Shown here one piece after another: positions 12,149 to 60,653 of a stretch of 64,000 nt of DNA (within the stretch, counting starts at the first letter, position 1; each line of letters begins with the position of its first letter). This DNA comes from Kalmusia sp. IMI 367209 (taxonomy: Eukaryota; Ascomycota; Dothideomycetes; Pleosporales; Didymosphaeriaceae): contig JAPEUQ010000007.1 in the NCBI GenBank assembly GCA_027946365.1, positions 744,001-808,000 on the forward strand. The letters run 5' to 3'. The notes beneath the pieces were generated by a model. That model did not search any database and was not told the origin of the DNA. It saw nothing but the letters and a program-made list of their open reading frames with translations. The translations under genes and the position numbers were made by a program.

Positions 12149-14735
<2,587 letters not shown>

Positions 14736-21552: not shown

Positions 21553-23043
21553 TTAGTGCGCCTTTGGAACATTCGGGCGCGCCAACCACAGTGCCACACT
21601 CTCCCTCGCTGTCTCGCTCGCCCAAACGCTATCTGCACCCCCCTGCTTCCATTCTTCGCCCGACGCATCCTCGCCGCCGCCACGCGCTGCATCCCCAAGA
21701 ATGACTTCTAAATCGCGCTTCTGCGATGAGAACCAGCGCTTGACGAAGGCAACAGGGTCGGTCGCCATACTGGTAAAGAAGGCATGCTTGGCTTTCGAGC
21801 GGCTGATGGCACTCATGAGAAGCACGATCTGGTCGTCGATGTTGTGGATTTGCTGGAGCGTCTCGGTGCTCTGCTTGGAGCGGAGGATGCTATGGAGCAG
21901 CGGCTGGAGGGGGTCGTCAAGAGTGACTTGTACGTCGTAGACGGTAGGTTCGGAGGGCGACTTGCCGGATTCGGGGGACGGCGCTAGATAGTCCTTGTCG
22001 ACGCGGATCGTGTACTGGAGCTGAACTGGCGGAAGTGTGGTTAGGTGGGGCTTAATGAGCTGCGGGAGACTGGGGAAGTAGAATGAGTCTGCGCCGCCGA
22101 AGAGGGCTTTTAGCTTGGAGTCGCACGCGAATTTGCGCTCGTCTTCGTCCTGCTGCAGATTCTGTGCTCGTGCGTATTCCCAGACTCCCATTAGCACGCT
22201 GGCACGGTCCTCCTCATCGGTGTCTAAGAGCTCTGCCATGGGCTTGCTCAGGCGAAAGATCTCGGGTGATTGGTGGCGCTGCAGGTTGATTGTGATGTTG
22301 ATGTTTTCGTCGCCCTTGCGCTCGAACTCGATCTGGCTGAACGGATTGTCTTGCGGGTTGGCGCCCTCTGGCCGCTTCCACTCGATCTGGGTGAAGTTGT
22401 CAGGCTGTAGGCTCTTGGCACGGTCGAAGTCGATGGTAATGGCTGAGAAAAACTGCGAAAACGGCTTCGGCTTCTCCGTAGAGTCCGTCTTCTCATCGAC
22501 GTCGGCGTCGGCGTCCATGGCATCCGGGTCCTTCTCGTCGTCGTCCTCTTCCAGGCCCTCGTCGTTGAGCTCATCGAGCAGGCGGCCCTGGATCTTGACG
22601 CGGTATGTCGCATTGGTGTCGCTATCGAAGTCGAACGCGTCGGCGTCCAAGCCGCTGCTCTGCCAGGGCTGATTCTCGGCGGTATTAGAGATCCATATGC
22701 GCATGGTGCCGCTACGGCCGCTGCGCGTGTGGAAGACGGAGTCGGAGGCCTCGAGCTTTTTACGCATCATGGTCGCATCTAGGATGCGCTCGACCTCGCG
22801 CAGCTCCTTGTAGCGGGCCACGCCGTCGCCGATGCAGACATCCTCGACGCCCTCGGGCACGTTCTTGTTGGTGGGTGTCTTCGCCATGCGGCGCAGGCGG
22901 TCGCGCTTCTCCTGGTCGGCGCGCTGCTGGGCGATGAGGTGGGCATTGCTATGCTGCTGCTGCTGCGGTGGCGGGTACTGGGACGGGTGCGCTATAGGGG
23001 CTGGTTTGCGGAACATATGCTCCAGGTCAGCCTTCCTGATCAT
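21553..23043 (-). CDS. RSC6: SWI/SNF-RSC complex SWIB-domain subunit
   Basis: Orthologue of Snf12/Rsc6 (S. pombe Ssr3; BAF60 in animals), a core subunit of SWI/SNF-type chromatin remodellers in the nucleus. It is a single exon of 496 aa from MIRKADLEHMFRK. Conserved parts are the N-terminal RELREVERILDATMMRKK-like segment (KELREVERILDATMMRKKLE), the beta-rich TMRIWISNTAENQPW block, and the FTQIEWKRPEG segment. The SWIB/MDM2-type domain runs from about SPEIFRLSKPMAELLDTDEE to DSKLKALFGGADSFYFPSLP. The C-terminal part (HNIDDQIVLLMSAI, DPVAFVKRWFSSQKRDLEVI) is also typical. A GTACGT site 5' of the chosen ATG leaves room for a short first exon. The neighbour upstream is divergent. Confidence 0.88.
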   Translation of the reverse strand: MIRKADLEHMFRKPAPIAHPSQYPPPQQQQHSNAHLIAQQRADQEKRDRLRRMAKTPTNKNVPEGVEDVCIGDGVARYKELREVERILDATMMRKKLEASDSVFHTRSGRSGTMRIWISNTAENQPWQSSGLDADAFDFDSDTNATYRVKIQGRLLDELNDEGLEEDDDEKDPDAMDADADVDEKTDSTEKPKPFSQFFSAITIDFDRAKSLQPDNFTQIEWKRPEGANPQDNPFSQIEFERKGDENINITINLQRHQSPEIFRLSKPMAELLDTDEEDRASVLMGVWEYARAQNLQQDEDERKFACDSKLKALFGGADSFYFPSLPQLIKPHLTTLPPVQLQYTIRVDKDYLAPSPESGKSPSEPTVYDVQVTLDDPLQPLLHSILRSKQSTETLQQIHNIDDQIVLLMSAISRSKAKHAFFTSMATDPVAFVKRWFSSQKRDLEVILGDAARGGGEDASGEEWKQGGADSVWASETARESVALWLARPNVPKAH

Positions 23044-23889
23044 CTTGCGTGTGGTGAAGTGGGCAGCGGGCGTGGTGAGGGTACGGGTGTGGGTGCTGGC
23101 GCGGGCTGTGGAAGGTACGTACCGGGCCCTCGCCGTGTAGGCGTTGCGTGATGGCCCGCTTGGGCAGCGAGCGGGTAATTCCGATACTGTGGTTGCATTG
23201 CTGCTCGTGTGTGATGCAAGCGACGATGGAAAACTACGATTCCACGATGCGCGCAAGTGGCCGACGATGCGATGAAGGAAGTCTGGAGGGACGTGCACTT
23301 TTTCCAGAGACGCGTCCGTCCCAGCGCTGCAGGGCTGAGATGGGCGAATCAAGCCCCTTTTCCCTGCCCCGCCATCGGTTGCTACCCCGCGACCAGCGTG
23401 CGACACCTTCGTCCTGGGCGCCTCTCTTCATCTGACTCGGCCGGGGAATGCGTGGCGACATGGGGCGGGTGGGTGCCGTCCACATCAGTCTCGACGACGC
23501 GCGACGCCATTCACCGCTTCCCTCGTCTTGATGATCCTTGGCTATACGCGACGACGCGCCCTCCCAGCGAGTCCATCTGATCTGCGCACGCAAACATCAC
23601 TTAGCGTCATCGATTCATTGAAAACCCATCTCCTAGTGCCTGTCTCTTTCGTTCTGTACATCCTTCTGCACATCGTCCATCTCAAAAAGTTCTATTGCAT
23701 TGTACAAGGGACCTGAGAGAGCCATCAATAGAGGACAGTTCACAGCCAGAGACTGGTACACTTCATACAGTTCTGCTCAGCTATATGGTTAGGTGTGTTG
23801 ACCCAGGATCTACGATACAAAAGCGGATTGCGTAGAGACTGCCAGCTGCGAGGCGTACGTGGACGACCAACGCAGAGGACGCTGGGAAA
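23044..23889. promoter_or_regulatory. Divergent upstream region of RSC6 and amidohydrolase
   Basis: 846 bp with no supported gene; it is GC-rich near RSC6 and more AT-rich near the amidohydrolase. Confidence 0.35.
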
Positions 23890-38181: not shown

Positions 38182-40291
38182 TCAGGCTAGAAGTATAGAG
38201 CGAGGTCTTACATACTCTATGATCTCTTGACCTCTTTTATCCTTCCCTCCAATCGTGGCGCAATGGCCCCTTGTCCAGTCTACTCTCAACTCGTCTACGC
38301 CCATCTCATCCGCGCACCGCGGCGTCTCCTTCAGCCCGGCTAGTCTCCACCATTTCCGCATTGCCCTCCTCAGCAGTCCTAGCTCGTACTCATTGAATTT
38401 GATAAGCTCGCTGTCGTCGTACTCGTAATCCTCATCGTCAGTATCAGGGTCCTCTTGGGCACCGGCATGGTGACTCTGGGATGACGGTCTCGCAATGCTG
38501 GAGCGTCTTGGGAGTGGGCGTGATGAGGAGGCAGATGGTGACGTGGGTTCGTGGAAGTTGTGCTTGCGCTGAAGGGAGGACTGGATATTGGAAAACTTTT
38601 GCGACATGTCGGGCGCCCAATTTTTCCATTTGCCGAGAATCTTTAGAGACATGAAGTATTGGCGGAGAATAGTGGAGATGAGCACGCCATTCTCCTCGCT
38701 CACTATCTCTTTCGCTGTACCACCTTCTTCCTCGATGAGCAGCGAAGTGTAGCCGTCTGGAAGGATTGTTAGTCGTTAGGCTAGGGTAGTCTATGAAGAT
38801 AGCAATATACCTTTTCCACGGCCCATATATCCCCGAGTTGCGAGGCGGTACTCTTTCTTCTCGTCTAGTGGATCTTCGCCAATCAAGACGCTCAGTATTC
38901 GCTTCTGTGGCGGCTGGGAGTAATCGGTCTCAAATGTAATGTTCGATACCTGCGGAAAGCGACCCTCGAGCGCGGGGTAATTTGATACACCATTTTCTAA
39001 TGCGTCCCAGATTTGCCTACCAGTGACCTGCATCACGACCACCGGGTCTTCGAATGGGAAACAGTTGACTATATCGCGTACCCTTAGCACGCCAGGTGGA
39101 TAGATTTGATCGCCGCGGATGGTGCCCGCCGCCATGATGCAGCAATCAGCCTCGTAGTAAAATCGCATGAGATCGCAGACAAAATTGCCGAGGTTTGACT
39201 CCCTCGTGCGGACGGTGGTGAAGCGTGCATCCAGGGGCGCAGCAGTGTATCCTATAGGCTTGTCCAATTTTTCGTTCAGCTTCTTCGTCAGACCTTCGAC
39301 CGTTGACACAGCCTCCCGGTCCTGAGGTATGCTACTGACAATGTCTCTCCTTGTTATCTTGAAGTCCCATCCTCGACCGCCCTGCTTCCGCCACGCTTCG
39401 ATGTGGGAGAGCTGTTTGAAATCGGTGCCCGAGCGTAGAACGTGGGTACCGTTGATGAAGCTGTGCGCGTAGTAGTGATCGTGCCCGCCTAGTATTATGT
39501 CGATTAAATCACCTCCAGTCTTTTCCGCCAGCTTATTGTCATTGGGTTCCCTTTGGTGTGACACGGCAACGATGATCTCTGCGCCCTGCCGCTTTAACTC
39601 TGGTATCAATTCCTTCGCCGTGGCACTCGCACTCTTGTATATTATGTTCGGGGGCAATGAGTTGATCGTGTCCAACCATTCCCGTTCTGCTAATCCAATG
39701 ACGCCAATCTTGATACCATTCGAGGATGTGAGCATGCATGTCTTTCCTGCATTACCGAGGGGTACGTTGTCGCCAAGCGCGGGATCCAGAACGTTCGCGA
39801 GTAGCCAAGGGAATGTACATTGTTCAGTGAGATTCCGGTATTGCTTTACGCCGAAGTCGAGGTCGTGGTTCTGTTCTCCTTAGCTCTCGTTGAAACGGGG
39901 AGCATGATCGCCTACCCCCACGCAAGCTACATCTGTGCCAATGCCATTCAAAATTGGTACCATATGGCTTCCTACGGGCCTCGATTAGTTCTTGTCTTCT
40001 CTCATTCGCCTTCTTGGACAGACCTTTTGTCACACTGCTCTCCAAGCTCGGATTGAAGGCATCCCCCGAGAAAAAGGTAACCAGCTTCGGCTGATCTCGA
40101 AACTTCTCATCTTCCCTGTAGTGTCTGACCAACGTCTGGAATCTTGCTACGCCTCCTACAGGCTCTGCCGAGCCAGCTTCAACATGGTATACGTCGTTGT
40201 AATGGAGAAATCGTAAATCTGGTGGGGTGGTCGGCGCGGGGCTTGGTTGGAACACCGTCTGCTCGTCTGCGGGGATATCCTTCGGCGCCAT
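38182..40291 (-). CDS. 5'-nucleotidase-type metallophosphoesterase
   Basis: Calcineurin-like phosphoesterase with a 5'-nucleotidase C-terminal domain (UshA/NT5E architecture). Exons 40291-40024, 39971-39916, 39870-38811 and 38756-38182 give 652 aa in frame; the small 56-nt exon 2 is supported by both splice sites and by the protein. Metal motifs occur in order: LRFLHYNDVYHVE, TFFSGDAFNPS, then CVGNHDLDFG formed across intron 2, VAVSHQ and GGHDHYYAH. The C-terminal domain shows ESNLGNFVCDLMRFYYEAD, AAGTIRGD and CFPFEDPVVVMQVTG. A roughly 170-aa acidic and Ser-rich extension follows the nucleotidase domain (DPDTDDEDYEYDDSE). No signal peptide is seen, so it is probably intracellular. The start at 40291 is preferred to an in-frame ATG at 40483. 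Confidence 0.87.
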
Positions 40292-43119: not shown

Positions 43120-44987
43120 GGTGGAATCGCAGAGCTGCGCGCGGCAGTAAATGGAGCGTTGGTAGGGTCCTACAAGAGGAAAATGTAGAAAACGAGAAGT
43201 CTCAAAGTGTGGAAACTGCGCGAATTGCGTGGAGGCGCATCTCAAACAACAAGCAGGTGGCTGCTTGCGTGTCTAGCAGTCCTTGTGTGTTGAAGCGTGA
43301 GTGACGAGCTGGCCCTCTCCTCGTCGGCAGAGCGTTCACCGCCCGCATCACGTGTGCGGCAATCGGCGGAAGGATTCACCGTTCCGTACCGATGACTCAG
43401 CGGCCTTGTCCCATTTCGTACGGCAACGTTCATGCTTAAAAAAAATAGCCTTTTCGCCACATTGGCCGAGCAATGGAGAATGTCGCTTCTGTTCAACGTC
43501 ATGATGACTTACAAGAGGGTCACAACCTTAGAGCCTGCCTCTATCCTTCACTGCTTCTCCAACCCACATTGCTACACTATTTGTCCACTGTCAAATCCTA
43601 ATGGCAGTGCCACAGCCAAATGATTAATTCGTGCCATACCCTAAAACCATGATTCGATTCTTAGGGTATTTCCTGTGGATAGGTTTGATCACCAGAATAA
43701 GATCACTAGAATAAGAGCAGTCTTGATAGGGATCCGGTCACCTAACAACTTTATATTGAACCTCTAGCACTGGTGGGATGCATGTTCGAGATTTTCATCG
43801 AAGACATTGCCATCTTACCACCAAATCTTTTGGTCGCATTCCAGAGCATCCACTGGAATGACTCGATAGCATTGTCAGGAGAGCTTTTATTCTTTCTACG
43901 GCCGTGATAGTAAAGAAAAGCATCTATGGGATATGGCGGTCCACAGTGAAATCTATAGTCGATATGGGGTCAGCCGATGGCAAGCCTTACAGACGATTGT
44001 GCGCATCTCCCAAGTAGACGTTTTGGAACATGGTCAGACCTGTGCTGTGCCAATACGCCTACGCAGGAAATCAAGACCTCGATGTCGAGACACAAATTAC
44101 GCCGGGGTAATCGGCATAGCCGGCTTACCCCCGATCCAGTTTGTGCCTCCTGCTCTACCTGTCAACCCTTCTCCTGACTCTGTTTGCATGCCTTCTACTT
44201 GGTCAATCTACTGCTTCAAATTGTAGAAGTTCTGTACCTGATGTTCTACCTATTAATCCTGCTTCTCAACCCACTACTGATTCCTCTATCCTTTCCGTTC
44301 ATTCCACATATCCTTATTCCCAAGTTCCATCGGTTCGATGGACAACCACTCCCCACCATTGATTCTATCTCTGTTCCTTATATTCCACTTCAACTGGAAT
44401 TCGATAGTGAATTAGCAATCCTAAACGGAGGACGTGTGGGCTACGGAACTCTTACAAATGGGTCTGTAAGCAAGAAAACCTTAACATTGGATGAACACGC
44501 GTGATGATAAAAAATTCTAAGTAAACTTAGATTGGAAGCATTGCATTATAGACTTAATCGAATATAGGCAGGTCACCGTTGACCGCCTCAGTATCGTGCC
44601 GGGTATTCTGAATGGTGCAGAGTACCTGGTAAGCAACTGGCCTTTTGTGAGCTTTTGCAGTGAGCCTTCGTCACTTATGGGGAAGAAGAAAAGAAGAATC
44701 TAGCCGTGCCTAAAAGACAAGAACATTTGCCGCAAAATGAACCAGGGAAGGTGCCCATTGAATTCCTGATGCCCTCCCTAGATCCTATATACTCCAAACT
44801 CGTTATATTCATATAGACCAGAACGGAAGATCATGTACTTGGTATATCCAGATGCCTCCGTGCATGCATTTCGAGAGCATCTGCATGCAATAAATCTAGG
44901 CGGAAATCAGCATGCAATCTAAGCACGAAGTCTACATTATTGTGAAATTACCTTAATCTCGTATGGACCCTGATCAATGGCAATCCT
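43120..44987. other. 1.9-kb gene-free boundary of the Hsp70-like cluster
   Basis: No intact gene is supported. The GC content falls here from the ING gene toward the module cluster. A hairpin with perfect 9-bp arms (ATACCCTAA/TTAGGGTAT) lies at 43636-43669. Short frames at 43933-44504 are Ser/Pro-rich and might be a mobile-element relic, but nothing diagnostic is visible. Confidence 0.4.
43636..43669. repeat. Short inverted repeat
   Basis: ATACCCTAA at 43636-43644 and its exact reverse complement TTAGGGTAT at 43661-43669, with a 16-nt spacer. Confidence 0.7.
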
Positions 44988-46703
44988 CTACTTATCACTG
45001 CCTTCAACAAAAACCAAGGCTGGTACCAAGTCAAGGCGCTTGTCGAAGTTTTTCCCACAAGCATCGCCCCACTTCGCGAGCCCCGGGTTCACGATGAATC
45101 CCACCTTTGCCTATCGGAACAGCAGAGCTCTCTGGGACGCTCTTCAGCTCTGGATAGGGGCTTTCACTTGCTATGTAAATGTCTTCAAGGCTGGGGAAGA
45201 TGACCTGAATGCGGCATTGCTGGAGCGCCATTTGTAAGGCAAGGTTGAAAGCAGTGTCAATGATGAGAGTAATGCGCACCAAGTCGAGTTGTGGCCACAG
45301 AAGCAAGAGCGTTCCCTCGATAAGCTTAAGGATATGCTCTCGATGACTATCAATACTGCTCTCAAGAAGTGGATCTTCACTTGTTATCAAGCTGGATACG
45401 CCGTCGCCCTTACGAATCGAAGCTACGAAATGCTCCATTGTAGTGTATCGCCAGCATTCGCTTGATGACGAGGGAATGGGCCAGTCGAAATAGTGGTCTG
45501 TTCCAAAAATTCGTCCGAATAACGCTCGTAACTCCTCATAATCGGAACCAAGTACATGAACTAAACATTTAGTAGATGTTCATTTTGCAGACAAGAGAAG
45601 AATGAAACTTACATGGAGAACAGAAAACATTTTCGTAGAGCGTGGACCAAATGTATGCCTCAATTATGTCTTCCCTGCGAATACTCTTTTCCAAGAGCGC
45701 AGTGTCTACGTCTTTCAATAGCAGGGCGTTCAAAATTCCGTTGACCTCAAGAACACTTGGTCTACGTGGTAGATCAGAGTACCGACCTAAGGACTTGATT
45801 TCTCCTGCCAAGGCATTGAAGTCTTGTTGGAACTGCCAATCTTCAATAGCTTGGATTTTTTCGGGCCCAGAGAACAGCTTCTCCCTCATGAGCCATTGTA
45901 TTTGTTTCTTATTCAATTGAGCTTGAACTTGAAGTGAAGCCGCACTTTGTGCATCCTTGAGGGAGTGCGTCGCTAATCTGATTGATAGAAGTAAGATTGT
46001 TTATATTGAGCTTGATGCTCTTATCCGAAGCATAAGGCAAAAGACATCTTTCGTAAATGCTCTGTAAGAGCGTAGTCGTGCCACTAAGATTGGTCGATTG
46101 TTGTTGCTTCTCAGCGAGGTTGTTCTTAACTTCTACCTCGAGCTCATACTGCATGGCGTACATCCTTTGCCCCTCGGCAGCAAGCTCTTGAATTTGCGAG
46201 CTTTTCCTCTGGTCCTCATCGTGCAACTCCGAGATGACCGCCTTGAGGCTTAGTTTCTCGTTCTCGAGCTGGGTAATCTCCTGGTTCATGTCGTACAGTC
46301 GGGCAAACATTTCTTTGTTCTCTAAATCGACATCCTTCATTCGCACACGGAGTTGCCGGATTTGCTCAGCCTGCACTTCGCTCTGCTGTGAAAGGCTCTT
46401 GTTGTCATTCTTCAGCTCCCGATTATGGCGCTTGAGGTTTTGAGCCCAACCGTTATTTTTGTTCCGGGTTGACCGCATCTCCCATATCTGGTTCTGTAAA
46501 TATTGGGGACGGTTTGTGCCTTTCTGTGCAGCTAATCGTGGATCCTGGTTGGCGGTCATTGCGAGGGGCATCTTTGGCATATGAGAGGCATCGAGCTTTG
46601 ATGATTTGTCTCGCTGCATTGTTTGCGCCGATTGCCGCATCGAGACCAACGCACGAGCGGCTTCGTTATCAGTTTCGGCGCTTCCGTAAGGAACGGACGT
46701 CAT
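44988..46703 (-). CDS. Module A partner: coiled-coil protein, frame broken twice
   Basis: Paralogue of the two other coiled-coil partners in this window. Exon 1 (46703-45613) and exon 2 (45560-44988) are joined by a 52-nt intron at the same position and phase as in copies B and C. The central part is a long coiled coil (for example LRVRMKDVDLENKEMFARL, LHDEDQRKSSQIQELAAEGQ). The first-exon end, IIEAYIWSTLYENVFCSP, and second-exon WRYTTMEHFV, AFNLALQMALQQCRIQV and NPGLAKWGDACGKNFDKR are shared with B and C. Continuous reading needs one base removed at the G3 run 45961-45963 (restoring INQISDALLKDAQSAA, matching INQMLGLLLEDALASY of C). A second base must go near 45104 (restoring GKVGFIVNPG). 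The implied length is about 553 aa. It is either a decayed copy or a sequence error. Function unknown. Confidence 0.6.
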
Positions 46704-47261
46704 GCCTTCATGTTGATATCCAGAAAGGTAAGTCTTTAATAGTCTAAAGCAATTGTTGAAAATTTCGCCGACCTGTGAGGTCGTCAGTGTTTTGTTGACT
46801 AAATTCCATAAGTGATAGTACGTACAATAGGCATCATCAGCGCAGTTGGCAAAGCTAAAGAACCCCCACAGAGTGATAGGGTTTGTGGAAAGGTTGCAGG
46901 GCTTGGAGCAAAGATTTGCTCGCGGAACTGAACGAGGTACCAAACGCACTCCAATAGGTGAGCGAGTCTGAGCAACATAAGCATGTGTACCGGTAGTTCA
47001 TAATGAAAGGTTGCGAGATAGACACGTGTAAAGGTGAAAAGACTTCTATCACAAAATTCTAGCCGCTGTTTATTCCTTCACTTCAAATTTCCCTTAGAGC
47101 TTGTCGTTAGCAGGGTCGTATAAATTACCTGGTAATATACCAACTTCGCTCCCTACTCCCACAACACCTACCTCTGCAGTCTTTTTTGAGTGATTCTCAC
47201 AACCTGAATTTAGACCGTCACAACCAAACCAAATTTCGGCGCTACGCCAACACACGCAATC
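46704..47261. promoter_or_regulatory. Bidirectional promoter region, module A
   Basis: 558 bp between the divergent partner A and Hsp70-like A genes. The same arrangement and nearly the same length recur in modules B and C. No specific binding site is claimed. Confidence 0.4.
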
Positions 47262-49413
47262 ATGTCGGACTTTGGCATGGTTTGGGGTTAGTTTTTCACG
47301 CCATTCTATAGTAGTTCAGTGCTCACAAGCTTATCTAGCAGTCGATTTTGGTACCACCTTCACCGGTATTTAGCTCTGTCCGTTGGTCTTGCATATTCTG
47401 ACTAGCACAGGAGTCGCTTACTCTGAATACTGTGATTCGAACGACAAAGACGGAAGCATTGACGTCGTGACAGACTGGCCACTAGCCCAAAGTTCGAACG
47501 GCACAAGTCACAAGGTCCCTAGCATCATCGAATATACCACCGAACAGTCTAAAAACCTCGAAAAGGTCGAAAAGCCGCACAGGATTGGTTATGAAATCCC
47601 ACCGGCGAATTTTAGCTACAAGTGGATGAAGCTTGGGCTCGAAGGCTATTTGACAGGCGAAGCGGCAAAATTACAAAGAGAGCAATCGTCCAAGAAACAT
47701 CCACCTCACAGTGCGGAGTCCCTCGTTGCAGATTATCTTGCTCAGATCTTAGAACATCTCATCTTGAATCTCGAAAAGAGATATCCGGAAGAGCTCTGGA
47801 AGATGCTGCCCACCACACTCGTAGTTACATTCCCTGCCGTCTGGTCCGATTCGGCAAAGCACAAGACACTAGAAGCATTCCGCATAGCAGGGTTCAACAC
47901 TATCAGGCTTCCTCAGCTCAAGAAGACTCTGACTATTACAGAGCCCGAGGCGGCTGCCATGCATACTCTGAAGTGGCTCTCGCGAAGTGTCATGATGACA
48001 AAGTTAGACGTAGGCGATGGTTTCACCGTTTGCGACATGGGCGGCGGAACAGTCGACCTCATATCATACGTAATAACAGGACTCAACCCAACCACGCTAG
48101 AGGAAGCGACTATTGGAACCGGTGAGCAGTGTGGTTTCACTTTCGCGGAGAGGCATTGTTTCATATGGCTTGAGGAGAGGATCGGGGTCGAAAACTTCCG
48201 AAAACTTTCTGAGAATACTCTCGCAAAAAACTTGTCTCGTTCCAGGTTTCCACCGAAGCTAGCAGACATGATGGTTCATTTCTTCCGTCCGGTACTATGG
48301 GCTTTTCGCGAGGGCGAGTTTCAAAGCAGATTTCTCACACTACCTCACCCATTGATTGGACTTAACATCAAAAAGAAGGGCATCAAGAATGGTGAATTGC
48401 GAGTAACGCGGTGAGTTACATGCAAGATTCATCATAGAGTAAAGGACCTTGATTTCTTCAATGCAATTTACGGTCACACATTATCTTTTGCTAATCGCCT
48501 CAAGGGCTGATCTTGGAGAGATGTTCGACTTCTCTCTAAAGCAAACCCGCGCCCTCGTCGAAGGACAGCTAAGACAGGCTGACCGCAACCAAGCGGTGAA
48601 GACCAAGGTATATGCTCCAAGGTTCCCTCAGATCATGTGTCAAAGTTGGTTAATTGGTCATAGTACATCTTTTTAGTTGGAGGTTTCGCTAACTCAGAAT
48701 ATATGAAACATCACATCGGCATAGCTGCGAGCGGATTTGGAGTTCATGTGCTTTCTCCACAGGACGCGTAAGTATATGAATCTGCCTATGTAGACTAATG
48801 CTTATCATTGGTCTCAGGTGGTCAGCCGTAGTCCAGGGAGCCGTAATCAAAGGCCTCGAAGACAATGGAAAAATGACAGTGAAGGCCCGCAAGTGCAGAC
48901 GCCATTACGGAACCAGTATCAGCAGCCCCTTTGATCCAAGCAAGCATAGTGAGACAGATGCATACATCTGCCCGTATACGGGAGACAAGAGAGCAACGAA
49001 TACTATGGCGTGGCATATCTCGATGGGTGAAGATCTATCAACTTTAGCACTCTTCCACGGAAAATGTGCCCTCTGTTCAAAATTCTGGCCTGGAGAACGG
49101 AGACACGTCACCTTATCGCTCTTCGCATCTGACGAGAACTCAGCACCTATCTCATCACGATCAAAGGTCAGTCGCCAAAGGACTTAACGAAAACGTGGGC
49201 TAAATGATAGAATAGGGTGTCTATCGAGTCGCCGAGTTGGCTGTAGATGTAAGCATGACACCTCATAGTGCGTGGCGAAAGCAGCGCAACCGCACCGACA
49301 AGCTGTTTCATAGCTTGGATTTTGATATGGAGCTCTTGGTGAGGTCTCATATCGAATACTCGCTGTCTGTAGATGGTGCTAGGTATGGATCCGTGAGAGC
49401 AGAGTATGTTTGA
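47262..49413 (+). CDS. Module A: divergent Hsp70-like ATPase (HSPA12-like)
   Basis: Actin-fold ATPase of the divergent Hsp70/HSPA12 type. Seven exons (47262-47286, 47339-47365, 47411-48410, 48505-48607, 48664-48767, 48818-49166, 49216-49413) give 601 aa exactly in frame, the only complete Hsp70-like copy of the three. Phosphate 1 is VDFGTTFTGVAYS, the connect region ITEPEAAAMHT, phosphate 2 VCDMGGGTVDLISY and the adenosine motif FLVGGFANSEYM. A typical fungal insertion follows with ARKCRRHYGTS and a DAYICPYTGDKRA segment. It lacks the long substrate-binding domain and lid, and there is no EEVD or HDEL end; the C-terminus is YSLSVDGARYGSVRAEYV. The gene is divergently paired with the coiled-coil partner. 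Substrate and role are unknown. Confidence 0.82.
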
Positions 49414-50267
49414 GACAGCCGTGTGACATGCACTTCTTTCTTGGGTTAAGGCGATATGTTACATTGAAGGACACCACAGCGACTCTGACTTGGACAAGAG
49501 AAGTAGCATTTAGTCTAGTACTACTTTACTGATTCATATGGTTATCGATGTAGAATCAAGATAACATTTCATCTTCCTGAGATGTATTTGATCAGCGGCG
49601 ATTTCACAGAACTGATTGGCATGACTCAGCAACTTGCATTGATTCTTCTCTACATATATGTGGACATATAGATTGCCTCAGGATGATCTCTTTCTTTCAA
49701 GGACTAAATTTCTGGATTATCTATGACAACGTACTTAGCAGTATCAAAGCCTAGTGATTCATTTTACAATATGAAAAAGATGCATAGTTGATGCCATGGC
49801 CCACCAGATCTTGCCGCATTCTTGCACCAACAACACACTTGCCATTACAATGGCCTAACAGCTACTTTTATTACTAATTCTACACCTGCTCACCAAAAGC
49901 CGTATTAGCTGACTGTAGAGTCTGATAAGTCTATACGGGAACGATAACATTTGCATGTTGGTCACATGCATAGGAAGTTGGGATTTGTAAGTAGACTTTA
50001 GACTCATCCGCTTTTCTTTTTGAGTATTTCATTCACCCTCGAACAAGGCATACACAAGTTGTTGACCATGTTTGTCACGAACACAAGTAATGAACCTAGG
50101 AGATAATTTTTATTTTCGATATCAGTCTACAGTCGTCTTAATGTAGAGCCACTCGATGAACGCATGCAGCGTGAAAGCTACTCATTGTTAATCAAAAGAG
50201 TTGTTGAACGAGATAAAGATCATCCAATACCAACAGATTGGTGTCGAGGAACGTAGACACCAACATC
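49414..50267. other. Intergenic between modules A and B
   Basis: AT-rich, no gene. The stretch 49735-49925 is related to 55737-55930 between modules B and C, so this spacer was duplicated with the modules. Confidence 0.5.
49735..49925. repeat. Intermodule repeat, copy 1
   Basis: It shares with 55737-55930, in order, GTATCAAxGCCTAGTGA, GATCTTGCC, AATxGCCTxACAxCTACT, a degenerate AGCCxTAT and TGTAGAGT. Reading only; identity was not computed. Confidence 0.6.
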
Positions 50268-51845
50268 TCATGTTGCAACATCGTCACCGGAGCAATCGGA
50301 AAGTAATCCCAAAGCGTTATTGGATAGCGCCTTCACAACTGCCTCCTTGTCCGGCATCTCAGCGAGTACCTTTTTCGGTGGCTCCGTTACGAAGACCTCA
50401 GCAGGGACGATTTCGCAACGTTGGTCCAACTTCTTGCCGTGAGCATCACCCCACTTTGCTAGGCCAGGCTTAACGATGAACGCCACGTTTCCCTCCTCAA
50501 TGTCTTCGTTATCTAAAACGCTCCTCAGATGTGACGTCTCACCGAGCACGTACTGCTCACCAATCTTCGGAATGACAATTTGGACACGGCATCGACGAAG
50601 CGCCATTTGGAGAGCAAGGGAGAATGCTTTGTCGATGATATCAGGTATCTGCATAAGCGGCACGCCCGGTGAGAGTGTCTGCAAGGTAGCAAGGATGTGG
50701 TCGATGGTATCCTTTCGGGCTTGCAAGATGCTCTCCTGCATGTCGATCTCATTGTCGCCTACGAGCCCGTCCGTAATAACTTCGTTGCCGCTCATTTCGA
50801 CGAGTCGCTCGACAGTAGTGTATCGCCAGCGCTCTGCCAACTCTGTTGGAATAGGCGAGCGATTGGCATGGCCATCGCCAAAAATTTGCGTCCAGCCAAC
50901 GAAGTAGGCAGCATACTTCCGACCCCAGATCGAGGCTATTAAGTGAATGGCATGTTAGTGCAATTCGTAGGCTATAGGAAATGGCATTGGCAGCGACATA
51001 CACGGAGTGCTAAATACGTCGTTGATCAGCATGGACCATATGAATGCTTCAACGATCGCTTTCTTGTGCTGACGTGTCTTCAATGATCGTTTGTCCACAT
51101 CAGCAACAAGGATACCAGGTCGAATAAAGTCAATGTCCAGAACGTGTATCTTATCCGGGATATCGACAGATCGACTAAGAGACTTGATGGCAGATGCAAG
51201 AATGCGGAAGTCCTTCGCGAAAGTGTCATCGCTCACCGTCTCCACCTTCTCCACATTTGCAAAGAGTTCGGTCTGAAGGAGCTTAACTTGGGTGCGCAGA
51301 TCCGATGTGTGTCGAGCTTCACTAGCGAGATGGTCGATCATGCGTTTGAAGCCTTTCACACTGCGATCTAGCTCAGTGAGAGATCTTCCGAAAGCATTGC
51401 CGTATCTGTTTGAAAACCGATCAAGCAGGTCAGACTGAAGATTGTATGACTCTTCCATCTTATCTTTAGCCAAAGTGACCTCCTCAAGCTGGTAGGTTGT
51501 CCACTTGAGTCTACTCTCTAGATTCAGTACAGATGCTGTCTTATGCCCCAATTCGCGAGAAACGGTATCTAGTTTCAGCAACAGATCTTTCTCATTTTGC
51601 GTGCTGTTACAGGACTTATGACCGTTTCCAATGTTACAGTCATTTCGCACATGGGATTTGAAGCTCCCAATTGCTGTTTCGACGGAATCGCCGCGGTTAC
51701 GAGATAAACCTTGCGCATCTGCAAGATCCTCTTGCGTATCCACAGTTAAGACTTTCGGTCCTACGCCAGCGGAGTTGTGTCGAGTGTGCGCCATAGTATA
51801 CTCCTTATAAGTGTCCTTCTGCATAGCAATTTTGGACCCGCGCAT
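50268..51845 (-). CDS. Module B partner: coiled-coil protein
   Basis: Intact copy, 503 aa in two exons (51845-51002 and 50935-50268); the GTATGT donor at 51001 is the one that keeps the frame. The N-terminal 120 residues are low complexity. A coiled coil follows (SRLKWTTYQLEEVTLAKDKM, FKRMIDHLASEARH), then the conserved block VETVSDDTFAKDF and IVEAFIWSMLINDVFSTP at the exon end. Exon 2 holds the shared C-terminal domain: WRYTTVERLVEM, IDKAFSLALQMALRRCRVQI, then KPGLAKWGDAHGKKLDQR and EIVPAEVFVTEP. No known domain is recognised and no membrane helix is seen. It is divergent from the Hsp70-like B gene 556 bp away; repeated pairing suggests that it acts with that protein, perhaps as cofactor or client-binding subunit (inference). 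Confidence 0.75.
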
Positions 51846-52401
51846 CGTCTCTTATTGCTTAGACTTCTCGTCACCCTTAACGTTATAAAGTCTCTCCTCT
51901 CCCAACAGTGATTGTATCATCGCTCAGGGTTAATACAGCTGTCGTGGCGGCTGTGTATATTTCTTCAGCCCTGCCCAACTCAAAATCTACTGGCAGAATT
52001 AGTGAGCTGACTATAGTATAGTAAATTATTTAGTTTAATCTTACCCCGTCAATGATCGGCATCAGAGAGTGCGAGAAGGGCAAAGTGCGAGCATTCACAA
52101 AAAGGAGTATAGTAGTCGTGTGCGGCTGTCGACTAAAGAAGAGGGAAGATAAGAGGGGAAGATACGTTCGATATACTACTCGCTAAAGCAGAGCGGTAAT
52201 GCTGCTCTTACAGCGGACATTTTTATTAATAAGGCAGGCGCGTCTAATAACTGATGAAACAACAAACACTCACTGCTATGATCACCTTCACCCACGCCAG
52301 CTTTACCAGGTAAAGCCTTTCAGTGGCTAAACCTTAACTTTAGGTGATTAGCTCAATCTGTCTACAGCCCTACACCTCCGACTTGCCAAACATCACTCAT
52401 T
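51846..52401. promoter_or_regulatory. Bidirectional promoter region, module B
   Basis: 556 bp between divergent starts, matching module A in length; AT-rich, no coding content. Confidence 0.4.
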
Positions 52402-54500
52402 ATGCTAAGTAATCGACTTGTGATCGGTTTATACTGCTCCTAATGTATATGGGACTCAGATCTAATTTGTTATAGGACTGGATTATGGAACTACGTATAT
52501 AGGCGTATCCTTCTGCGAGACGACCGATACAAATCTCGACGACTATTGCATCCAAATTGTGCAGAATTGGCTATATCTCCACTCATTCGTTGGAATGAAG
52601 GATAAGGTACCGAGTGAGATTGCATACGTGAAAGGGGAGAAACAATGGGGCAGTAGGATCTATGTAAATACTCCCCGTTATATTTGGATGAAGCTTGAGC
52701 TTGAAGGTCTGATGCCAGGCGAAGCCGCAATTATTTGTGAGGAGCTGTCCATGCTTTCGATTAGCTCTGATATGATGGGAAAGCGACCTGTGGACATCGT
52801 CGCAGATTTTCTCACGGAAGTGAAGAAGGTGCTCATCGAGAATCTCGACAATCACTACGGTCGGCAGCTTTGGCGCACACTCCCCATCACCCTCGTGGTT
52901 ACTGTTCCTGCAGTCTGGACAGATGCAGCAAAGGCTCGGACAATGCAGGCTGTTCGCCAAGCTGGATTCAAATCCGGTAAGTAGCCCCATGTATAAAACA
53001 CGATAGAGCCTAAACTTATCGCTCCATTCGGTGCAGCCGAATTCCCCGAGTTGAAGCGAACTATCACCACCACTGAGCCGGAAGCTGCGGCATTATACAC
53101 CATGTCATCCATGAAAGGAAGCACGCAAGACAATCAACTTTCTGTTGGCGATGGCTTCATCGTCTGTGACATGGGCGGAGGCACCGTGGATCTGATTTCT
53201 TATCGAGTTGCTGAGACCGAGCCTACCTCTATCGAGGAGGCAACTATTGGCACAGGCGATCAGTGTGGCGGCAGTTTCGTGGATCGAGCCTTCATTCAAT
53301 GGTTAGAGATGAAGTTGGGTGATGCAGATTTCCAAAAGATCGCCGGTGGTAGTGCTGATAGCCTATCACGTACCTCACTTCCTACCAAGTTAGGGAAGAT
53401 GGTGCAACAATTCAGCTTGACTGCAAAGAGTGGCTTCACTGGAAGCGAGGATTTCGACTTGGACCTTCCAGCGTTCCTTGGTGAAATTCAAGACCCGGAG
53501 CGAGGAATGTTCGACGGAGAGCTTCGGATCACTGCGTGAGTTTGCACTTCACCTTTCAACATGAAGTGTCTTTTCAGCACTAATGCCATGCCATACAGGT
53601 CAGAGATGATTACCATGTTTGAATTCCCACTTCGCCGTACGCAACAGCTCTTGGTCGATCAATAGCGGCAGGCAGTTCAGGACGGGAAAGTGGCATTGAA
53701 AGTAAGTGTCTTATGAGAATCTTACGGCCTAGAAACTTACGAAGGATAGTATGTCTTCATGGTGGGAGGGTTTGCGGAATCACCATACATGTACCATCAA
53801 CTCAAGACACTAGCCGAGGGCCTCAATCTTCAAGCTATAAAGCCTAACAATGCGTACGTCTCTTCTTTACATGGGATTATGTGTACTAACATAATATTTA
53901 GATGGACCGCAATCGTTCGTGGTGCGACGGCTAAAGGTCTTGAGGGCGACGGTCGTACTACGATCAAGTTCCGTAAATGTAGACGCCACTACGGCACTTC
54001 ATGTACGTTACCATTTCAACCTGGAGTGCATCGCGAGTCGGATTCCTACATGTGTATGTACCAAGGCCACAAGCGCGCTGATAATCAGATGTCTTGGATT
54101 GTCAAGAAGGGACAACAACTCGGAACCGCCGACCTCTCCCATGGAAAGATTCCGATACATCGCAATTTCTGGACCGATGAACGTCGTGTAGCAAGTCTCA
54201 GACTTCTCGCGGCCGACTGCGACCTAGCCCCGAATCGATCAAAGCACACAGTAAGAACCCGAAAACGTCATAGTCCAAAACTATAGAGCTAACCATGTCT
54301 AGGCGGTATACACGGTGGCAGATATTGTTATTGATCTAAGTCCCGTACCTGACAGCGAGTTTAAGCGGCATTATAGCCCTTCTGGTCTTCCGTATGACCG
54401 TCTGACCTACGCTCTCGAGATCTCCATTCAGTCTTCTCTTGAGTTCTCATTCTTGGTCAACGGTACTAGGTACGGTTTGGTCACAACTGCGTATGCTTAG
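52402..54500 (+). pseudogene. Module B: Hsp70-like ATPase with in-frame TAG
   Basis: Second copy of the HSPA12-like ATPase. Exons are 52402-52408 (weak), 52476-52976, 53037-53535, 53599-53701, 53750-53853, 53902-54250 and 54303-54500. The last four exons have lengths 103, 104, 349 and 198, identical to module A. Motifs are LDYGTTYIGVSF, TEPEAAALYT, VCDMGGGTVDLISY, FMVGGFAESPYM and FRKCRRHYGTS. A TAG at 53663-53665 replaces a leucine conserved in A and C (…LLVDQ, stop, RQAVQ…), which would remove the last 40 percent of the protein. The rest of the frame is clean, so the loss is recent, or the codon is an error or read through. It lacks the A/C intron after the first TG motif and has an extra intron at 52977-53036. 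The start codon is uncertain. Confidence 0.7.
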
Positions 54501-54504
54501 GCTG

Positions 54505-54557
54505 GTGAGTAATCCCACACTATGGAGTACATATGTAACATACTAACTGTACTCTAG
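54505..54557 (+). other. Probable 3' UTR intron of Hsp70-like B
   Basis: Directly after the stop TAG there is a GTGAGT donor, a perfect TACTAAC branch site at 54541-54547 and a CTCTAG acceptor, 53 nt in all. This was recognised by signals only. Confidence 0.6.
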
Positions 54558-55736
54558 CTCCCGAGAAACACCGCATTGACACGCAATGTGATTCATACGA
54601 ACGGTATTATGGGCTGCGAAGAATCGCGAATGGTCTTCTTACTTGTCGACTCTGGACTAGCGTGGCGAATATTACACGTTATGTGTGGGTGGCTTGGTCA
54701 GCCATGAGATGTAACGCCGCTTTCACATTTCACAGTCTGAGTAGTCTAGATCTCTTTCAGACATGGACGTTCATGAACTCGAACTCTCCCGTCACTGTCT
54801 CTTTCTCTCAAAGACCACTTAGATAATCCGTGATGCTGCACTTGTTGATCGTAACATTGATGATTTACTCCACAGTAGATAGAGTATACATCACCGATTT
54901 CCTGTCTATAGCTAGAATAAGTGAAAATTCCTTACTCAAACAAGAGTATAATATACAAGCGCCAACGTCCGCCCTGCACAAGAAACCCCTCTCACTTCAT
55001 AAAGGGTAAGATCTCGCCATCTCAAGGATATTCCACGGCCACCTTGACATGACTGAAGACTTTTAGTCAGGGGAAAGAAGAAAGACAACGTTCGATCTCT
55101 TAGCTGCCGACATAAATGACGCCACCTCCCGTTCTCCAGATCTGATGGGTTGTGGTATTTGTGGTATTTTTTCTTTGATTGATTGCTCACTATTTCAGTG
55201 TATTTACGAAATCATTCAGCTCGATATTGATCTAAACTTCGGTCCCTAATACCGAGTGGCAGCTGCGCCGCATCTCTCCGGGCCGGAAATACTATCGTAT
55301 AAAATACGACGTGGAGATCGGATTTCAATCGTAGCTTGAGTTCTCGGTGTCCATGAATCGCAAACGATATGGATACATAAAAGCGAAACATCCTTAATGT
55401 GCATTGAGCCGATCTTCCCTTTCAGCAGAAAATTCAGACACAGTCGAAGTCTACAATTACTATGCAATCCCTTTCACTACATGAATCCGTCATGTGGCGA
55501 CGGATTGATCTATGTTTTGGAGATATAGTTCCCGAAATTGATCCAAGAGATATTTTCCGACGCTCGATATGGGGTTCTTTGGCCGGGACGTGACTTTTCT
55601 GAGAAGGAGCGATATCTTCCATATCTGACGATCCCACATAATTGAACCGAGGTAGATATCTTGAATTATGCGGAGATATCCTTGGTATATCTATTTCTCC
55701 TTGCCCACATTCTTAGATAATCTGTGACACCATTGT

Positions 55737-55930
55737 CGGTATCAAGGCCTAGTGACGTAATCTACAGCATATAGAACATACGTGACTGATTCCATAACTC
55801 ACTAGGTCCCAGCGCGATCTTGCCCCACAAACTATACTAGCTGGTTCAATAGCCTGACAACTACTCCTACCACTGACTCTGAACCTGGTCTTCGTAAGCC
55901 ATATCAACGAAATGTAGAGTACGATAGTGA
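55737..55930. repeat. Intermodule repeat, copy 2
   Basis: Degenerate relative of 49735-49925 (see copy 1); same orientation and same position before a minus-strand partner gene. Confidence 0.6.
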
Positions 55931-56450
55931 GAAAGAAAATTTGAACGATGGGATGCGAGCTGTCAACCTGAAATTGATATGGATACGAGAACAAGATTTC
56001 TAAATATTGGTCAATCGCAAATGACGTTAGGGTTTGTAAGTAGGATTCTCTATATCGTGTTATTTGCTCCGATCAAGTTCTGAACAAGCTCGTCGCTGAC
56101 TATGATCACTAGGAGACCGGATCTCGAAAATACTAGCCAGCCAAAAAAAAAAAGAAAAAGGAGAGGTCATTGATTTGTATACTCCAACTGGCCCGACCTT
56201 GACATAATCATAAGTGGAAGGAATAACAGGACACGCCTGCCAGTTTCTCGGAAATCCAGTATGAAAGATCCAGTCAACTTTATGATGGAAAAGGGAAACA
56301 TTATAGGCTTTGAGAGAGCTATAGGCAAATTCATGCATGATCTGCAGTTGGAACGTGACCTTAGTGCAGCGTCTTATATCTGTGCACACGTTTAGTAGGG
56401 GTCGGATAAAGACCTTCTGGGAACTCACCGCTGTCGAGTTGACAACTTGG

Positions 56451-58023
56451 CTAGAGCTCCTCCATCTTAACCGCAATCTCTTTTTTTACGAGAGGCTCCA
56501 CGAGAACCATAGCAGGAACAAGGTCCAAACGCTGGTCTAAGTGTTCTCCTTGAGCATCCCCCCATTTCGCGAATCCCGGACTAGCGATGAGGGCAACCTT
56601 CCCCTCTTCAACTGTATCACTCTCTGCGATGCTCGTGAGGTCCACTTGGCCATTTAGGTATATGTCTCCTACCTCGGGGTAGACAACTTGCATACGACAT
56701 CGTTGAAGAGACATCCGCAAGCTGAGAGTAAATGCTTTATTCACGATAGTGTCGACCCGGGAGAAGTCCGTGCCAGGAGAAATGCGGCAGAGAGGGCCTA
56801 TGATGCTGTCTTTGACTCGGGACCGGGCACTTCGAATATTTTCCTCGAGTTGCGGGGACGCTCCCATCATTCTCCCGTGTGTCACGGCTTGTTCTCCTAC
56901 GCAGCCCAGAAGCTGTTCTGTAGTGATTAGGCGCCATTGCTCCGATAAACTGGTTGGAGTTGGCCACTCATGCTTGTGGTTTTCGCCGAATACATCAAGA
57001 AAATTCATTGCCAGGTCATCAAGTTGGTAGATGTAGACTGGATAAGTGTCAGTCAGAATTTTATGAATTTAAGGAGTGAGATTTTTAGTAACATAATCAC
57101 TTACAAGGACTACTAAAGACCCACGTGTACAGAACAGACCAGACGAATGATTCGATGATACTTCTGACGCGTACCGAGGGAATCAAACGTTCTCTTCCCA
57201 CACGGCCCAATAATACGCATTGCCTGATTTCGTCGGTGCGTAATATGGCAGACGTATCGACATTCCTGATAGGGCGAGTAAGAGATTTGATCGAAGAGAC
57301 CAGAGAGCGAAATTCTGTTGAGAAGTCTGCATCGGAGACCGGCTCGATTTTCTTGACATTTTGGAGCAACTGTCGTTGCAGAGACTTCGTCTGACCTTCT
57401 AGTTTCTCCACAAGAGCTTTTTGGGAATATGAGGCTAAAGCGTCCTCGAGGAGCAGGCCAAGCATTTGATTGATGGAGTCTGTGGTGCGATCATCGTACT
57501 TTCTGTTTTTGGAAGAAGCAAACGGCTTGAGAAGATACTTCACTACATAGTCGTATCGGCTGGCTACGAAGTCGTTCTTGTCCTTCAGCTCGAGGAAGTC
57601 CTTTTCCAAGCTACCATTGTCAGCTGCAATGGTTCTCATCTTTACACGAAGGGCCTTGTTCTCGGTTGCAAGAGTTCTTATATCCGCCTGAAGGACTTTG
57701 ATCTCCTCGCGGGACTTGTCGCTCTCAGTCCGAAGCTCTTTAGCTTTGAGAAGAAGTTTGTGAACACGAGTATTCATATCGTCGCGATCGCGATTCGCAC
57801 TCCTCAGTTCCATAGCCAGTTGTCTTCTCGTTTTTTGTAGTCCCTCTTCCATGTGAGGATTGTGAATTTCGTTTCTGGGGTCTTTCGGCTTATACTCGTT
57901 TCGAGGGGAGTGATGGGTGGGACGGAAATCATTGTTGGAGGTAGGTGCCTGGCCGCGTAATGGGTTTGCAGATATGAGGGGAAGCCTGCCGGCTCTGTCA
58001 TTGCCACGCTGCCACGAACGCAT
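56451..58023 (-). CDS. Module C partner: coiled-coil protein
   Basis: Intact copy, 501 aa in two exons (58023-57105, 57037-56451) with a 67-nt intron at the conserved position (after VFSSP). A charged N-terminus leads into a strong coiled coil (ELRSANRDRDDMNTRVHKLL, LRTESDKSREEIKVLQADI, ENKALRVKMRTIAADNGSLE). The conserved middle is INQMLGLLLEDALASYSQK and VKKIEPVSDADFSTEFRSLV, then IIESFVWSVLYTWVFSSP. Exon 2 has WRLITTEQLLGCVGEQ, VNKAFTLSLRMSLQRCRMQV, SPGFAKWGDAQGEHLDQR and DLVPAMVLVEP. The frame continues open upstream of the ATG at 58023, so a short 5' exon is possible. The C-terminus is shorter than in B. No known domain. Confidence 0.75.
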
Positions 58024-58620
58024 GTCTTGAGGGTAAGTCGAGTCGCTCGGTGTACTAGCGTCTCTAGATTTGGTGAACAGAGACCCGACCTAGAAAGGAA
58101 ATCAGCATAGTATAAGACGAGGGGCACTCTAATTCAACATACTGCTTGAAACATTGGGATGGCAAAGGCAAACAAATTTGAAGTAGAAGAGAAATGATAC
58201 GGTTATGAGAGGGAAGGACCACAAATATAGGTGGAGAAGGTGAAAGCAATTGAAGTTAGAAGGTGGCACCAGGGAGTGCTGCTATAAACTCAAAGCGGTG
58301 AAGGTGAGAATTGTCAGTAGCTCAGATGAAGTAATAGTGAGAAAGGTGATAGGTTTCACGTGAAATGCAGTGTCTACGAGTTGTCGCAATTGCGCTGTAA
58401 GTGAGAGGTCATTGCAGGCCGCAAACTTATCAAGCTTCCGCCCCTCTATATGTACATAGCCCACTCCTTTCCTCTAATCACCAACCGCTCCACGGCATCT
58501 GCTGCACCATCGTCCTGGCTGCACCATTGTAGTCTTTCCCGAGTAGCTATGGTTGGACATGGCTTAGTGATCGATTAGTTTCATTGGCCATTGGCGGAAC
58601 ATTGTATCTAATTCTGACAG
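58024..58620. promoter_or_regulatory. Bidirectional promoter region, module C
   Basis: Nearly 600 bp between the divergent genes. It must also hold the unidentified first exon of Hsp70-like C. Confidence 0.35.
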
Positions 58621-60653
58621 GCGTCGACTTGGGCACTACCTTCACTGGTATGTAGAATTCCACATTTGCTATCTACGATGGGTCGCTCAGTAACCATAGG
58701 TGTAAGTTTTTGTGACACTTCACAGAACGACAATATCGAGAACGGCATCCAGTTAATCACAAACTGGCCCTCTGTCCACTCAATGGTCGGTACAAAAGAG
58801 AAGACACCTACCGAGATCACATATCTAGGAGGTGCTATCAAGTGGGGTGCAGCCATTCCGCCGAACATCCAGCGGCATATCTGGACAAAACTAGAGCTGG
58901 ATGCTCCTAGAACGGGTGAGGCCGCGAGGATTCGTCAAGAACTGCTCAGTTCCGCGTATGGTGGGGTAGCTGGTGTAAAGCGCCCAGTCGACATCATCGC
59001 GGATTTTCTCGCACAAGTCTTGGCCCATCTCATTAAGAACCTAAATGATCAGTACACGGAGAAACTTTGGAAGACATTCTCCATCACTCTCGTTATTACT
59101 TACCCTGCTGTCTGGAGCGATGCGGCCAAAGCACTTACCTTCAAAGCTTTTGAACAGGCTGGCTTTAATGCAAAAAACCTACCGACGCTAAAGAAAACAA
59201 TGACAGCAACCGAGCCAGAAGCTGCAGCGTTATACACGATCACTTCTATGCGTGGCAGTGCCCAGGATCAGCAATTCGCTGTTGGCGATGGCTTTGTCGT
59301 CTGTGACATGGGAGGTGGGACTGTAGATCTGATCTCATACAAGATCGTAGGCGTCAATCCTACTGCTATTGAGGAAGCGACGGTGGGCACAGGAGACCAG
59401 TGCGGTGGAAGCTTTGTAGAGAGAGCTTTCCTTCAGTGGTTAGAAGACAAATTGGGTGCTGCTGACTTCCGCGATATTGCGGGATGTTCGGTAGCTGAGT
59501 TATCTCGCACTTCACTGCCGCCTAGGCTGGGAAAGATGATGCAGGAATTTACTGCCACTGCGAAGTCCGGGTTTAGAGGCAGGGATAGCGATGACTACGA
59601 AGTGAGACTGCCTGCGCCACTGAATGCTATTGTCGAGGACCAGGCTCGCAGTATCTCGAACGGAGAGATACTGATCACACCGTAAGTCCTCTTTCTAAGC
59701 CAGTTAATATCGCGTTGCTGGATTGGATCCTAATTGTTTTCAAACAGAGAAGACCTGGAACAAATGTTCAGTTTTCCTCTTCGTAGAACACGACATCTCG
59801 TCATGCAGCAGCTCAAGGAAGCTCGACGAAATGGGAAGGCTAAAATCAAGGTACGAAGTTCTGATCCTAAACTCTGCATCCAGTGTTAACATTATTGTGG
59901 CACGTAATCCTGGTTGGTGGCTTCGCCGAATCTCAATACATGCGATCGCAACTTCAGGAATCATTGAAAGATCATGATGTTCAGGTCATCAAGCCCCGCC
60001 ATGCGTACGTATCTCGTATAGGCAGACACTTGGTGAACATCGCTGATAATTGTCATAGTTGGTCTGCTATTGCACGAGGTGCCACCGCGAAAGGACTTGA
60101 GCAACATGAATCGACACCGATCAAAGCTCGTAAATGTCGGCGTCACTATGGAACGCCGTGTAGTCAAGTATTTCAGCGCAAGAAGCATCGCGAACAGGAC
60201 TCATACATAAATGAGTACACCGGCGAGAAGTATGCTGGAAACCAAGTAGAATGGCTGATTAATAAAGGCCAAGATCTTTCGACCGTAGCAAACGTCCATG
60301 GCAAGATATCTATGCGTTCGCTTTTCTGGCTTCACGAGGCCAGGGTAGCGAAAACGCCATTGTTGGCCGCAGACGTGGACGATGCTCCCCCCCGTTCGAA
60401 TGAGGATGTTAGTATTTGCCCACAACCAAATTGATTCATCACTAATGTATACGAGGCGGTCTATGAGGTGGCCCAGTTGCACGTCGATCTCGGCTCAGTA
60501 CCTCAGGGAGAGTTCCGGAAGCGACGTAATGATTCTGGCACGTTGTTCTACGAGCTCAACTACGAGATTCACATCTCCGTCCAGTCCTCCCTCGAGTACT
60601 CTTTCTGGGTGGATGGAAAGCGGTATGGTTCCGTGAAGGCGGAGTATGTTTAA
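58621..60653 (+). CDS. Module C: Hsp70-like ATPase, one noncanonical splice site
   Basis: Third copy. Supported exons are 58621-58647, 58700-59681, 59748-59850, 59901-60004, 60059-60407 and 60456-60653; lengths 27, 103, 104, 349 and 198 equal those of module A. Motifs are VDLGTTFTGVSF, TATEPEAAALYT, VCDMGGGTVDLISY, ILVGGFAESQYM and ARKCRRHYGTP, with the end YSFWVDGKRYGSVKAEYV. The intron before the ILVGG motif should end at 59900, but the bases there are GG, where A and B have AG; reading through that intron meets a TAA. The first coding exon is not resolved: it must end in phase 1, and only weak candidates lie upstream (for example an ATG frame from about 58449 to a GTAGTC donor). It is probably a real or recently damaged gene, divergent from partner C. 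Confidence 0.68.

Follow-up and report, generated by a model that had tools for sequence, protein, structure and literature searches.

The locus described here raises the question of why the same pair of divergently transcribed genes, coding for an Hsp70-like ATPase and a coiled-coil partner protein, occurs three times side by side in Kalmusia sp. IMI 367209, and what the two proteins might do together. The window, i.e. the whole stretch of DNA that was analysed, comprises 64,000 nucleotides (nt; contig JAPEUQ010000007.1, positions 744,001 to 808,000). The robust outcome of our analysis is that genes for Hsp70-like ATPases are repeatedly paired, in divergent orientation, with genes of one protein superfamily, and the new observation is that this pairing extends beyond the tandem in the window to unlinked loci of the same genome. 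The recurring pairs suggest an undescribed chaperone-type machine, and it is plausible, with about an even chance of being correct, that the partner is an exchange factor of GrpE type that works outside organelles. All six module genes were modelled by hand from the sequence (lengths of proteins in amino acids, aa):

Exons 46703-45613 and 45560-44988, minus strand: module 1 coiled-coil partner, two frame breaks (~45,960-46,000 and ~45,110)
46704-47261: shared intergenic region between the ATGs of module 1, 558 nt
47262-49413, plus strand: module 1 Hsp70-like ATPase, seven exons of 25/27/1000/103/104/349/198 nt, open 601-aa frame
Exons 51845-51002 and 50935-50268, minus strand: module 2 coiled-coil partner, open, 503 aa
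51846-52401: shared intergenic region of module 2
52402-54500, plus strand: module 2 Hsp70-like ATPase, seven exons of 25/501/499/103/104/349/198 nt, in-frame TAG at 53663-53665
54995-55391, plus strand: 3' end of a decayed fourth Hsp70-like gene between modules 2 and 3, with stops inside, found by tblastn
Exons 58154-58143, 58089-57105 and 57037-56451, minus strand: module 3 coiled-coil partner (N0V90_007229, here P0001), 527 aa
58155-58548: shared intergenic region of module 3
58549-60653, plus strand: module 3 Hsp70-like ATPase, seven exons of 19/27/982/103/104/349/198 nt, 593 aa

The three minus/plus pairs reported in the initial annotation are present (44,988-49,413, 50,268-54,500 and 56,451-60,653), the 103, 104, 349 and 198 nt exons that it had found to be shared are the last four of the Hsp70-like gene in all three copies, and the partner intron lies at the same place in each module, always in phase 1. 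The spacing of 556 to 600 nt given there for the starts holds for modules 1 and 2 (559 and 557 nt from ATG to ATG), but not for module 3, where it is 395 nt, or 526 nt if an inner ATG is taken. Towards their 5' ends the Hsp70-like genes differ from each other: module 2 lacks intron 2 and has an extra intron within the large exon. The modelled module 3 partner is identical to the public protein P0001 (100% over 527 aa). With the module 2 and module 3 proteins as tblastn queries, E-values for the best piece per pair of modules ranged from 1.9e-105 to 1.6e-172 in the case of the Hsp70-like protein and from 1.9e-21 to 1.7e-61 in that of the partner, so that the likeness of the modules is not due to chance. 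A hidden Markov model (HMM) of the partner matched C-terminal pieces of the module 1 partner (E 4.8e-38, 6.8e-22 and 4.4e-20) and the module 2 partner (E 2.2e-66 and 2.7e-36).

Judged from its sequence, the product of the plus-strand gene is a divergent ATPase of the Hsp70 superfamily. The gathering cut-off of PF00012 (20.6 bits) is passed by module 3 with 32.5 bits, and module 1 lies just under it with 20.4 bits (E 1.8e-4) for its first 351 aa. The module 3 protein also matched the DnaK and HscA models with E-values of 3.4e-11 to 6.2e-9, far under the cut-offs of those models, and Pfam and NCBIfam assign the protein to the superfamily and no finer. The segments VDLGTTFTGV, CDMGGGTVDL and LVGGFAES of module 3, which we take to be the phosphate 1, phosphate 2 and adenosine motifs, have equivalents in modules 1 and 2. 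No relative was found in the PDB at E <= 0.001. The PF00012 alignment spans residues 121-422, and by eye the protein seems to stop at the putative beta part of the substrate-binding domain (SBD-beta). As modelled, the ATPase frames open about 7-9 residues ahead of the first phosphate loop, which makes a mitochondrial presequence unlikely; the system probably resides in the cytosol or the nucleus.

For the partner protein, a structure model of P0001 from a 16-row alignment (mean predicted local distance difference test score, pLDDT, 71.5; predicted template modelling score, pTM, 0.53) shows a 116-residue helix (82-197) along with a helical region and, at the C-terminus, a group of strands at 447-514. 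No partner protein exceeded a Pfam or NCBIfam cut-off in the results seen, which for one scan were the best 25 of 62 families. An alignment of four C-terminal parts retrieved 15 further proteins related to P0001, in a search that required 5-residue words in common, scored 7,054 candidates and may let remoter relatives escape. The seven named ones all come from other fungi, namely Paraphaeosphaeria (three), Karstenula, Trematosphaeria, Lophiostoma and Clohesyomyces, genera that we take to belong to the Pleosporales.

When the genome was searched with the module 3 Hsp70-like protein, the best candidates at E <= 0.1 were the three modules, the remnant and ten other Hsp70-like loci, and 10 kb were read around each of these ten. 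At seven of the ten, a divergent gene close by carries the C-terminal pattern of the partner, roughly P-x-L-x-K-x-G-D..G plus a final V-x-x-A-x-V; five are supported by leave-one-out profiles and two are weak. Coiled coils at these loci were called by eye. The partner-type genes are (C and L numbers being our handles for contigs and loci):

C26 (L056): intact 528-aa frame
C30 (L059), L059:1048-2595, minus strand: by eye, a membrane-span-like stretch replaces the coiled coil
C23 (L060): partner-type gene
C2 (L058): partner-type gene, one frame break
C25 (L061): partner-type gene
C25 (L063): partner-type gene
C4 (L062/L144): partner-type gene

The leave-one-out profiles were run against six-frame open reading frames (ORFs) of at least 40 aa, taken from these other loci, from the window and from eight loci given by a PF00012 search. 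The omitted gene ranked first for L056 (6.1e-8), L060 (3.2e-6), L059 (4.4e-5), L058 (0.009) and L061 (0.017) and second for L063 (0.10), and L062 was not recovered by its profile; since the best false match per run had an E-value between 0.04 and 0.58, support for L058 and L061 is modest. Conversely, a profile made without the window-family members still retrieved the window family (3.4e-6 and 6e-5). No partner was recognised at C13 (L054) and C8 (L057), where both strands of 10 kb were read, nor at C6, an Hsp70-like fragment. An intact single-frame partner-type gene of 480 aa lies on C12 (L145:2912-4351, minus strand; C12:777411-778850). It reaches 67 bits with the profile lacking the window family, and no Hsp70-like gene was seen beside it within the 6 kb that were read. 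Paralogues of the L059 partner were seen at C7:690361-691062 and C26:412013-413234.

The distance matrices of the two proteins correlate (Mantel r 0.76, p 2e-4; ten pairs, three of them from the window), and still do when a single window pair is retained (r 0.54, p 0.026; eight pairs), with an Hsp70-like coverage between 233 and 579 of 594 positions. The proposal of the initial annotation that the pair is co-inherited is supported by this correlation and by very divergent members that are again close and divergent at unlinked loci. Its proposal of an obligate co-factor is more tentative, as at least one partner-type gene, that on C12, has no Hsp70-like gene nearby in the 6 kb covered.

At C23 and C2, a P-loop AIG1-like GTPase sits between the Hsp70-like and the partner-type gene, with the same gene order at both:

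L058:6263-7402 (C2), plus strand: AIG1-like GTPase
L060:5573-6877 (C23), plus strand: AIG1-like GTPase

This GTPase family was found at C2 and C23 only (genome search, E <= 0.01). The PF04548 gathering score was not reached, with 22.1 bits versus 27 for the main exon of L058 (E 1.1e-4) and no PF04548 match for the L060 exon in a scan that covered the exons other than those with the P-loop. One may speculate from the GTPase at C2 and C23 and the membrane-type partner at C30 that the module has been attached to different outputs.

As to the function of the pair, a clue comes from the C-terminal end of the module 3 partner:

56490-56693, minus strand: GrpE-beta-wing-like C-terminal region, residues 448-515 (HMM-HMM comparison, model strands 447-514, VIA-align)

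Compared with the GrpE profile, this region scores 37.3 (P 5.5e-5), exceeding 500 of 500 shuffles, and was stable in 12 of 12 resamplings. On the preferred reading, the C-terminal beta domain of the partner is probably a beta-wing of the GrpE type that has diverged strongly. We observed that the genes are paired, that such pairs recur at unlinked loci, that the two proteins diverge in a correlated way and that the profile of the C-terminus resembles GrpE, and we rate it an even call that the pair constitutes a dedicated module of an ATPase and a GrpE-like exchange factor outside organelles, a two-part chaperone-type machine. In such a machine, both genes would be co-expressed from their shared bidirectional promoter, the partner would dimerise via its coiled coil, and its beta-wing would dock on the ATPase domain of the neighbouring Hsp70-like protein; docking would open this domain and allow ADP release and nucleotide exchange, and each non-canonical ATPase would thereby have a private exchange factor. 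Somewhat below an even chance we place the wider proposal that filamentous ascomycetes possess an extra-organellar GrpE-type exchange-factor system, made up of a mostly coiled-coil superfamily with a GrpE-like C-terminal domain, each gene divergent from its own Hsp70-like ATPase and sometimes accompanied by an AIG1-like GTPase, with several very divergent lineages within one genome (eight groups of paired loci, two of them weak).

The likeness to GrpE has limits. The beta-wing score falls to 22.4-33.4 in wider profiles and to 15.9-20.5 once the window family is removed, and no partner member reached the gathering score of PF01025. This family appeared at E <= 10 in two of 16 partner members (best E 0.3; best 25 of 62 families), and the two matches seen, of 11.2 and 10.1 bits versus a cut-off of 25.8, are located in the coiled coil. 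A genome search with PF01025 yielded a single GrpE gene elsewhere, which is Mge1-like. In a first alternative, the partner acts as coiled-coil adaptor, scaffold or client of the ATPase and is no exchange factor, the GrpE likeness of its tail being convergent or a profile artefact. We regard this as unlikely, yet as the foremost competitor, given that the nulls made by shuffling and by reversal, the resampling and the structural match ranked first agree on the same C-terminal region and on GrpE.

The age and the decay of the tandem bear on a second alternative. The initial annotation had assumed a local expansion; the tandem is real, and it can be added that it is old, since the modules share just 42-54% identity in the Hsp70-like protein and 38-40% in the C-terminus of the partner, and that it is decaying. 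Each of the three modules contains one damaged gene in this assembly: the module 1 partner with its two frame breaks is probably a pseudogene there, the TAG of the module 2 Hsp70-like gene lies within the 103-nt exon, and the acceptor ahead of the 104-nt exon of the module 3 Hsp70-like gene (59,899-59,900) reads GG instead of AG. The fourth Hsp70-like remnant (36-43% identity, E 8.4e-9 by tblastn; C28:799236-799391 in the genome search) has no matching partner remnant that was seen by tblastn. Tandem copies, decay and a remnant, along with very divergent partner paralogues (9-28% identity among nine members), the AIG1-like GTPase at two loci and the membrane-span-like stretch of the L059 partner, are what a locus of recognition, immunity or selfish nature that evolves fast might look like, in which ATPase and partner would serve as sensor and executor and exchange is possibly one step. 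We consider such a locus improbable: ordinary birth and death also fits decay and divergence, the partners showed no Pfam domain above cut-off among the matches listed, and no link to the literature was apparent among the matches listed, in the portions of the sources at hand; in the available portion of PMC10197012, on fungal immunity, the terms Hsp70, chaperone, GTPase and AIG1 have zero occurrences. Slightly more improbable still is that the genes are neighbours just because they were linked long ago and share a promoter, without joint function, for although divergent neighbours in compact fungal genomes share promoters, and no counterpart was recognised at three Hsp70-like loci or within the 6 kb read at one partner-type gene, partners only 12-40% identical between loci are close and divergent at seven further loci, and chance adjacency would be about 1e-3 per locus on a rough estimate that assumes some 13 partner-type genes among 13,561 and under-counts those away from Hsp70-like genes.

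The source genome of the window comprises 42.78 Mb in 30 contigs. According to the available portion of PMC10027605, cf. Kalmusia sp. IMI 367209 is an endophyte assigned to the Didymosphaeriaceae, its genome has 13,561 genes, and the assembly is nanopore-based and polished with short reads. Some of the gene damage in the modules may be residual assembly error. Positions 44001-60000 form an island of lower guanine-cytosine (GC) content (mean 46.6%, 44.8-48.2% per 2 kb) compared with a mean of 52.4% in the remaining window, where some 2-kb windows likewise have 47-48%; indices of repeat-induced point mutation (RIP) are not raised. A domain scan of ten of the long ORFs of the window identified four ordinary neighbours:

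4520-6160, plus strand: protein kinase
12152-13399, minus strand: M41/AAA protease
21556-23427, minus strand: SWIB-domain protein
38794-39879, minus strand: 5'-nucleotidase C-terminal domain

To our knowledge, the exchange factors of eukaryotic cytosolic Hsp70s are BAG, Fes1/HspBP1 and Hsp110, and GrpE is confined to bacteria and organelles. If true, a GrpE-like family gene-paired with non-canonical fungal Hsp70s would break this rule, supply HSPA12-type ATPases, of whose biochemistry little is understood, with candidate cofactors, and turn nameless hypothetical proteins into testable partners. The GrpE link aside, the recurrent pairing gives an expanded, unannotated fungal ATPase family a likely partner. 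BAG, Fes1/HspBP1 and Hsp110 would share the role proposed here for the partner; none of their Pfam families matched any of ten partners (module 2, P0001, P0002, P0003, P0005, P0008, P0009, P0010, P0012 and P0015). No description of such a gene pair was present among the matches listed from one limited literature collection, as far as its texts were available.

Human HSPA12A and HSPA12B are also divergent Hsp70-superfamily ATPases, and by this label, which the initial annotation used, the present protein may be likened to them. In the portion at hand of a 2008 survey, HSPA12 homologues were restricted to vertebrates among eighteen genomes (PMC2266713), and a GrpE-like partner of HSPA12 was absent from the matches listed in the literature excerpts. 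The atypical fungal Hsp70s SSE, SSZ and LHS likewise have a non-canonical Hsp70 fold and cooperate with other chaperone components, but are low-copy, occur in 53 of 53 surveyed Ascomycota and act as regulators themselves, according to the available portion of PMC3879978, which defines seven Hsp70 subfamilies in 53 Ascomycota from the S. cerevisiae set and in whose main text, as far as available, the terms GrpE and Mge1 have zero occurrences. The present Hsp70-like family, in contrast, is multi-copy and gene-paired and, in the part of the survey seen, falls outside its seven subfamilies.

The closest parallel is DnaK-GrpE (Ssc1-Mge1, mortalin-GrpEL1), which also combines an Hsp70-type ATPase with a long-helix protein bearing a C-terminal beta domain, and whose beta-wing is resembled in profile and structure. 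Unlike GrpE, the partner is about 500 aa long, has a predicted helix of 116 residues plus an additional helical region, stays under the PF01025 threshold and has a KWGD..G segment that is missing in GrpE. The partner also differs in that it shows no organelle signal by eye and is paired one-to-one with a non-canonical ATPase.

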